From positions 2,018,501-2,082,500 of the forward strand of contig NZ_CP022372.1 of NCBI RefSeq assembly GCF_002220095.1: a stretch of DNA of 64,000 bases. The letters are read 5' to 3'. This stretch comes from Bosea sp. AS-1. Its GTDB lineage: Bacteria > Pseudomonadota > Alphaproteobacteria > Rhizobiales > Beijerinckiaceae. This document shows positions 3,301-6,998 of this stretch, in pieces. The notes beneath the pieces are model-generated. The model ran no database searches. It was not told the origin of the DNA and saw only the letters and a program-made list of their open reading frames with translations. Made by a program: the position numbers and the translations under genes. Position 1 is the first letter of the stretch, and every line of letters starts with the position of its first letter.

Positions 3301-3416
3301 GACGAAGACAGATTCCCGAATCCGCGATCCGGCGCGGAGCCGGCCGAATCGGCGTTGCCCCATCATAGGTCGCGACAGCATTTCGTCGTGAGCCGGGAAG
3401 CGCATGAGACACATGC

Positions 3417-3446
3417 TTGCGTTCGGGCTGGTCTTTCGGTTACATC
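3417..3446 (+). promoter_or_regulatory. Possible leuA promoter
   Basis: TTGCGT (3417-3422) is followed 17-18 bp later by TTACAT/TACATC (3440-3446), about 27 bp before the leader-peptide start codon. It resembles a housekeeping -35/-10 pair only loosely. Confidence 0.3.
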
Positions 3447-3472
3447 CTGTCCTGTCGATTTGAGGAACGCCC

Positions 3473-3589
3473 GTGGTTTCGACCGCCCGCCATGACCTGA
3501 CGAAGGACTGCGCCGTTGCGCAGACCGTCGGCGTGTGCGCTCGCGCTCCGTTCTCGCTTCTTGGCCTTCTTCTCCTTAGCTGCCCCTGA
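3473..3589 (+). CDS. leuA leader peptide (candidate attenuator)
   Basis: A 38-residue frame starts at GTG 3473, six bases after a GAGGA ribosome-binding site. Near its end it contains SLLGLLLLSC, written CTT CTT GGC CTT CTT CTC CTT. CTT is a rare leucine codon in this window, where CTG and CTC dominate, so this cluster is not background composition. The frame ends at TGA 3587, about 110 bp upstream of leuA. Position, size and codon bias are those of a classical amino-acid biosynthetic leader whose stalled translation reports leucyl-tRNA supply. Existence of the frame is seen directly; the regulatory role is inferred. Confidence 0.75.
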   Translation: MVSTARHDLTKDCAVAQTVGVCARAPFSLLGLLLLSCP

Positions 3590-3658
3590 GGGCCGGCCGG
3601 GCATGCTGCCTGGGCGCTCAGGGGACTGACGAGAACCGCCACAGAAATCCCAGCGCCC
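3583..3658 (+). promoter_or_regulatory. Mutually exclusive RNA pairings in the leuA leader
   Basis: CCCCTGAG (3583-3590, covering the leader stop codon) is perfectly complementary to CTCAGGGG (3617-3624). GGGCGCT (3612-3618) is complementary to AGCGCCC (3652-3658). The two pairings share bases 3617-3618 and cannot form together. A ribosome held early in the leucine run would leave the first pairing free; one at the stop codon would mask it and allow the second. No U-run follows the second stem, so control by Rho or by access to the leuA ribosome-binding site is as likely as intrinsic termination. Confidence 0.45.
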
Positions 3659-3701
3659 GCTCTCCATCGACCACGCGGTGCGCCGACACCGGAAGAAGAC
3701 C

Positions 3702-5264
<1,563 letters not shown>

Positions 5265-6922: not shown

Positions 6923-6998
<76 letters not shown>

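Follow-up and report, generated by a model that had tools for sequence, protein, structure and literature searches.

Directly upstream of leuA in Bosea sp. AS-1 a short reading frame ends in a run of leucine codons beside a hairpin, which raises the question of whether leucine supply governs this gene and through which RNA structure it would do so. An earlier note on the window (the whole stretch of 64,000 nucleotides that was analysed) proposed ribosome-mediated attenuation by a leader peptide and two mutually exclusive stems, with either Rho or masking of the leuA start as the output. We favor a leucine-responsive translational attenuator of leuA, with a probability of roughly 0.63; translation of the leader in the cell, stalling of ribosomes on it under leucine starvation and a translational output are steps that we infer. 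The parts of the locus are:

3416–3445, + strand: possible promoter, CTTGCG – 18 nt – TTACAT (tentative, read by eye)
3462–3466, + strand: GAGGA, ribosome-binding site of the leader frame
3473–3589, + strand: leader frame, GTG start, 38 codons, ending ...SLLGLLLLSCP-stop
3557–3577, + strand: leucine-codon tract, six leucines in seven codons, five CTT; proposed sensor and anti-Shine-Dalgarno (anti-SD) strand
3566–3573, + strand: CTTCTTCT, a strand able to pair with GGAAGAAG of the leuA SD (from the sequence; predicted duplex)
3583–3590, + strand: 5′ arm of hairpin P1, CCCCTGAG, containing the leader stop TGA (3587–3589)
3592–3615, + strand: inner helices of P1, GCC/GGC and CGGGCA/TGCCTG
3612–3618, + strand: GGGCGCT, 5′ strand of the second pairing (present; support mixed to weak)
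3617–3624, + strand: 3′ arm of P1, CTCAGGGG
3627–3636, + strand: TGACGAGAAC after P1, kept in Bosea and pairing with tract segment TTCTCCTTA in the Bosea consensus fold
3652–3658, + strand: AGCGCCC, 3′ strand of the second pairing; alternative partner within AGCGCCCGC/GCGGTGCGC (3675–3683)
3691–3698, + strand: GGAAGAAG, leuA ribosome-binding site
3702–5264, + strand: leuA, 2-isopropylmalate synthase, start ATG at 3702

The gene at 3702–5264 is one that we take, from its conserved sequence, to encode the LeuA enzyme. The GTG frame with its upstream GAGGA is present as the earlier note described it, and codons 29–35 read CTT CTT GGC CTT CTT CTC CTT, giving the reported six leucines in seven codons, five of them CTT, before the frame ends in CCC TGA. 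CTT is indeed locally rare (5.4% of 1367 leucine codons in 30 long ORFs of the window), and the tract is the sole 7-codon stretch with at least six leucine codons in the 64 kb when all six frames are scanned. The CCCCTGAG/CTCAGGGG pairing with the stop inside its 5′ arm is seen in the minimum-energy fold of the window, in which the leuA ribosome-binding site (RBS) is paired with the leader's own start region; the leader folds modestly better than shuffles (z −1.33). Likewise GGGCGCT and AGCGCCC are both there, their pairing excludes that of CCCCTGAG with CTCAGGGG, and a U-run is absent. The alphaproteobacterial promoter consensus underlies the CTTGCG/TTACAT reading, which is tentative because a consensus scan found no sigma-70-type site.

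The element is not peculiar to Bosea. The motif, defined as CTTANNNGCCCCTGAG...CTCAGGGGA with at most two substitutions and AGGGG within 90 nt downstream, occurs in 53 of the 56 leuA upstream regions, which were collected through the similarity of LeuA and not through the motif; the window's own is included, A1 comprises 33 of the 53 leaders, and 18 of 20 other families of the order are among those with the motif. The three regions without it are those of G026 (at a contig end), G039 and G044, and five of the 61 genomes (G032, G045, G050, G052 and G059), whose best LeuA match is partial or distant, were not fetched. A first covariance model, comprising the hairpin and upstream bases, matches 245 of 297 genomes of the order, once each except for two matches in G205, together with 63 of 289 class genomes and 39 of 299 phylum genomes, all 39 of the same class; the three samples overlap. 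A second covariance model built from other orders matches 91 of the 289 class genomes, 136 of which have LeuA at E ≤1e-120. Eighty-three of these 91 matches sit 30–196 nt before leuA on the same strand, two others lie 406 and 417 nt before it, and six are in genomes without a LeuA listed at E ≤1e-120. Six of these eight outliers were inspected: in G357 and G430 the element stands before leuA close to a contig end, in G354 it is followed by a cupin-like gene and then leuA, and in G476, G574 and G576 (L359:269–344, L360:284–363 and L361:286–349) it precedes a different LeuA type with DLRDGNQ rather than TTLRDGEQ. This last position suggests that the element follows leucine synthesis and not one gene lineage.

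An exact-pattern scan of named genomes yields at least 120 stretches, and among the 80 matches listed all 80 precede leuA, recognised by motif within 500 nt in 79 and by translation in L266. These 80 loci belong to Hyphomicrobiales, Rhodospirillales, Acetobacteraceae, Caulobacteraceae, Thalassospira and others, with 4 of the 80 labelled only Proteobacteria. Of the 52 order genomes that the model does not match, 20 were checked: LeuA of at least 64% identity is present in 11, G062 has one of 55%, and 8 have distant relatives only or none. Loss of the element, or divergence past the point of recognition, can therefore happen with leuA retained. By family, three f24 genomes without the element are also without a close LeuA; LeuA is present and the element undetected in four genomes of f4, one of f9 and three of f34, another f34 genome being the matching G205. 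A search of the whole window against Rfam 15 gives no family above the gathering threshold except tRNA (a tRNA gene at 6923–6995, + strand, RF00005, 73 bits), and at 3400–3760 there are two matches far below threshold.

For the leader frame 182 leaders were tested (35 Bosea, 97 from the rest of the order and 50 from the class), 12 of 194 having been dropped beforehand for want of a recognisable leuA in the flank; L172 (G526), which has no motif, was dropped as well. The frame end and the leucine codons at fixed places are conserved among these relatives, as the earlier note had anticipated for a genuine leader. Counting back from the stop, leucine stands at codon −4 in 182 of 182 leaders, at −6 in 100%, 100% and 96% (genus, order and class) and at −5 in 100%, 94% and 48%, although the search models in part determine these positions and the 53 of 56 leaders obtained through LeuA similarity form the sample with less bias. 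In other orders, many leaders carry CGA at codon −5, and among L130–L175 (e.g. L143 and L144) the tract reads CTTCGACTTA or CTGCGACTTA, with the arginine codon CGA between two leucine codons. The last 16 codons hold 6.2, 6.1 and 5.1 in-frame leucines per leader in genus, order and class compared with 1.4–3.0 in other frames, which is two to four times as many across the 182 leaders. An SD match of at least 4 precedes the leader start in 33/35 Bosea leaders, 57/97 of the rest of the order and 27/50 of the class, and in Bosea the frame stays open at 35–43 codons with lengths differing by whole codons. The locus thus has a leader frame with codons of the regulated amino acid, as classical ribosome-mediated transcription attenuators do.

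The N-terminal part behaves differently from the end. In 13 equal-length Bosea leaders no conserved N-terminal peptide sequence is seen, the residues drift, and variable sites in codons 2–27 are spread 19/20/19 over the three codon positions, as would be expected if the open frame merely happened to lie beside a conserved hairpin and sensed no leucine. Such a coincidence is very improbable given that the frame end, the leucine codons and the place before leuA are kept class-wide, including before the different LeuA type. The stop lies inside P1 in 180 of 182 leaders (165 TGA, 11 TAG and 4 TAA, with TGG in the other 2) and in 34 of the 42 leaders of a fresh set picked by hairpin models containing no RBS sequence; a stop within P1 was accordingly rejected as a requirement. 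L388 and L389 (G428 and G536) have no stop there (CCT GGG). Proline directly precedes the stop in 180 of 182 leaders, and a Pro-stop stalling motif is not required, as L364 has Leu-stop.

Hairpin P1 covaries, as it should if it is one of the two stems proposed in the earlier note. For P1 and its inner helices the covariation score is 0.358, compared with 0.185 when shuffled and at most 0.101 when slid (95 sequences), and in the class alignment it is 0.346 compared with 0.166 and at most 0.057 (56 distinct sequences). Of the pairs 94% are kept, with 135 double-sided changes compared with 41 in shuffles (95 sequences), and since both alignments were fitted to the model's structure, these counts lean towards that structure. 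A leucine-codon leader with a conserved hairpin before leuA, whose stem covaries across many families, is, on the comparative sequence evidence, strongly supported.

The CCCC/GGGG core of P1 (window 3583–3586 and 3621–3624) is near-invariant, in 95, 95, 95 and 94 of 95 sequences, which exceeds what pairing alone would need. This near-invariance would suit a P1 that serves as the binding site of a protein or small molecule, with the leader frame secondary, and a binding protein has been proposed for the actinobacterial LEU element (PMC1262725). We judge this quite unlikely for the present element, in which compensated changes of the core do occur (CCUC/GAGG in L364 and CCCU/AGGG in L360), the inner part of P1 differs between orders, and leucine at −4 and −6 is the most constant coding feature. 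Compensated P1 changes occur in L359 and L360, before the different LeuA type.

The attenuator reading that we prefer places the switch between the leucine-codon tract and the leuA RBS. The idea of this pairing came from single sequences and was then tested by swaps, in which each leader's tract is paired with its own or with other species' leuA RBS region. Native pairs are the more stable, with energy z −6.4 (GC-matched −5.5) for the 97 leaders of the order outside Bosea and z −7.7 (GC-matched −5.9) for the 50 of the class; after removal of similar RBS regions (N=96) the GC-matched z is −5.4 (0/5000). Control comparisons in the class are weaker than tract with RBS but still show some signal, with z −2.95 for the reversed RBS, −2.7 for an upstream piece of the leader, −3.1 for the region following P1 and, GC-matched in 27 leaders, −3.25 for the region from −52 to −25, so part of the signal is composition or wider complementarity.

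Because the first leaders had themselves suggested the pairing, the fresh set of 42 was fetched. Its GC-matched energy z is −4.85 (1/10000); 24 leaders have at least 6 consecutive Watson-Crick pairs compared with 18% of swaps, and 7, 8 and 9 pairs in a row occur in 18, 9 and 4 compared with 5.0%, 1.5% and 0.3%, in an analysis for which windows were widened after the sequences had been inspected and four of the 42 had been seen earlier. For these two reasons the 38 unseen leaders were retested with the original windows, giving a longest-helix z of 5.4 (0/10000), an energy z of −3.1 (10/10000) and at least 7 consecutive Watson-Crick pairs in 12 of 38 compared with 4.3% of swaps (~1.6 expected). 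The fresh set is not fully independent, since it includes leaders related to one another and to those of the first set; under strict thinning to 26 leaders unlike each other and the first set, again with the original windows, the longest-helix result holds (z 3.6) and the energy test does not (z −1.3, 966/10000). Gene starts in the fresh set were chosen with an SD-match bonus, equal for native and swapped pairs, and two of the 42 are not leuA by motif: the gene of L374 resembles the other LeuA type, and that of L364 is cupin-like.

Individual leaders show how the two strands change together. Within one genus, L388 (CGATTCTTCG/CGAAGAATCG) and L389 (AGATTCTTCG/CGAAGAATCT) differ by a compensatory change between 10-bp perfect helices. 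In L364 (G354), whose codon before the stop is leucine, the tract has CTA for CTT and the RBS is TTAGGA, a parallel change; the small cupin-like gene lies here between the element and leuA. Consensus tract-RBS pairs were sought in six alignment clusters: three of 5–6 sequences give 8 pairs with one compensatory each, and neither the largest cluster (46 sequences) nor the two others gives any. Outside Bosea, species-specific pairing of the leucine-codon tract with the leuA RBS is, judging by the swaps, what is selected.

In Bosea itself the pairing is less distinct. Tract with RBS is not better than swaps (z +0.57), the longest-helix test goes in the wrong direction (z −2.6), and at least 7 bp are found in 7 of 35 leaders compared with 7.9 expected, in a test that has little power because swaps among near relatives can keep the pairing. 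In the Bosea consensus fold the tract pairs with the nucleotides that follow P1, and leader bases pair with the leuA start codon. The helix of the TGACGAGAAC region with the tract gives a swap z of −4.85 over a 25-nt window and of −0.16 over a 15-nt window, and the TGACGAGAAC/TTCTCCTTA pairing is uncertain because its signal is confined to the wider window; swaps in Bosea gave no signal for pairing of the tract to the 15 nt immediately following P1 or of the leader to the leuA start. The CTTCTTCT/GGAAGAAG pairing is thus supported by swaps outside Bosea and not significant inside it. The general logic of a tract that would mask the RBS is supported by comparisons in the class, while inside Bosea alone the tract-RBS pairing is indistinguishable from chance.

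Folding calculations address what a ribosome on the tract would do. With the tract masked, mean predicted SD openness rises from 0.35, 0.31 and 0.25 to 0.48, 0.44 and 0.42 (genus, order and class; every second sequence), and equally large masks placed upstream or after P1 shift it by −0.07 to +0.04. In the window the predicted openness is 0.32 when free, 0.04 with a ribosome on the stop and 0.76–0.88 with a ribosome on the leucine codons. A gain above 0.1 is seen in 26% of Bosea leaders, 52% in the order and 64% in the class, with a drop in 6–12%. Placing a ribosome on the stop likewise raises mean SD openness, to 0.45 from 0.32 in the order and to 0.35 from 0.24 in the class, which blurs the off state. 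Folding thus predicts that, on average, a ribosome on the leucine codons exposes the leuA RBS.

Leucine-responsive translational attenuation would then proceed as follows. The leader frame would be translated, and the leucine-codon tract with flanking leader bases would be the strand that pairs with the leuA RBS, the CCCCTGAG/CTCAGGGG hairpin folding between the two and keeping both strands close. With ample leucine the ribosome would pass the tract, stop inside the 5′ arm of the hairpin and leave, after which the tract would re-pair with the leuA site and leuA would be low. With charged leucyl-tRNA scarce the ribosome would wait on the leucine codons and cover the tract strand, so that the leuA site would be free; leucine shortage would in this way turn leuA on. 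A wider proposal, possible although we lean against it, is that this is a class-wide alphaproteobacterial element, absent from Rfam, in which the sensing codons are the switch strand masking the leuA RBS, which goes with leucine synthesis and not with one gene, and whose hairpin core acts beyond pairing, e.g. by gating ribosome release at the leader stop.

The second pairing of the earlier note fares less well than the first. Its energy relative to species-swapped partners gives z −0.7 in the order outside Bosea and z +0.4 in the class, and in Bosea z +0.4 with wide segments and z −2.4 (40/5000) with narrower ones; relative to shuffled partners the Bosea mean z is −0.8 (every second sequence). 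Support for GGGCGCT/AGCGCCC as a conserved pairing is thus mixed in Bosea and absent elsewhere, and of the two exclusive stems it is the first that covaries. These results bear on ribosome-mediated transcription attenuation, in which P1 would be an anti-terminator and a GGGCGCT/AGCGCCC or AGCGCCCGC/GCGGTGCGC helix would lead to Rho- or pause-dependent termination. The second pairing can form in the window, visual inspection finds it possible in several other families as well (G037, G048 and G060), its narrower Bosea segments do give the z of −2.4, and the stop and leucine codons are placed much as in the enteric attenuator model. We nevertheless consider transcription attenuation unlikely, given the absence of a species-specific signal for the second pairing in the order, the class and the wide Bosea segments, a third-fourth region whose fold is only slightly more stable than that of shuffles (mean z −0.4 to −0.8, every second sequence), and terminator-like sites in just 4 of 182 leaders (0/35 Bosea, 1/97 in the rest of the order and 3/50 in the class). 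On these counts intrinsic termination was rejected. TTTT runs between P1 and leuA are present in 4/35, 19/97 and 13/50 leaders compared with 0.5, 3.8 and 1.8 in mononucleotide shuffles, and seldom come after a stem. Of the attenuation originally proposed, the leucine leader and hairpin stand, the second pairing has mixed support in Bosea and none elsewhere, and an intrinsic terminator is not supported; masking of the leuA start as output, in place of a terminator, is supported, with the tract itself and not GGGCGCT/AGCGCCC appearing to be the masking strand.

Three known systems come closest. The enteric leu operon attenuator (leuL) has a leucine-codon leader peptide with a hairpin at the leader stop; in contrast to it, the alphaproteobacterial leaders are nearly without intrinsic terminators and, outside Bosea, their codon tract is species-specifically complementary to the RBS. 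In ermC-type translational attenuators, ribosome stalling within a short upstream frame unmasks an RBS, as would happen here; the cue would be charged tRNA in place of an antibiotic, and the sensing codons would be part of the masking strand. A third is the actinobacterial LEU element (Seliverstov et al. 2005, PMC1262725), described as a leader in which the run of leucine codons base-pairs with the leuA SD, together with a pseudoknot or alternative hairpin, occurring in Actinobacteria plus before one transposase gene. The two share their place upstream of leuA, and a leucine-codon leader before leuA, characteristic of the LEU element, is found here too; a base stem of leucine-codon run and leuA SD box, as in the LEU element, is supported here for the order outside Bosea, the class and the fresh set and is indistinguishable from swaps inside Bosea. 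Unlike the pseudoknot given there, the alphaproteobacterial element forms one hairpin, in which the leader stop usually lies, and all its occurrences found here are in Alphaproteobacteria or in records that carry the label Proteobacteria; the two are set side by side by description. By this analogy the best reading is translational attenuation that would be built like the LEU element. The authors of that study doubted a role of the leucine codons on the basis of Streptomyces mutation work and proposed a binding protein, and the same caution applies to the alphaproteobacterial leader.

A paper on Caulobacter genome architecture (PMC4117421) gives leader peptides for trpS and ilv genes, and its main text contains neither leucine nor isopropylmalate as a word. 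Among the matches listed in a search of open literature, covering titles and the beginnings of abstracts and leaving subscription papers mostly outside its scope, no description of a leuA leader in Alphaproteobacteria was found. The element yields a specific hypothesis, open to test, of how leucine could control leuA throughout a large bacterial class. If the hypothesis is true, CUY leucine codons would serve as a natural Shine-Dalgarno complement for a second time, perhaps independently, after the case proposed for Actinobacteria. CTT pairs with AAG, which could explain the leader's preference for this otherwise rare codon.
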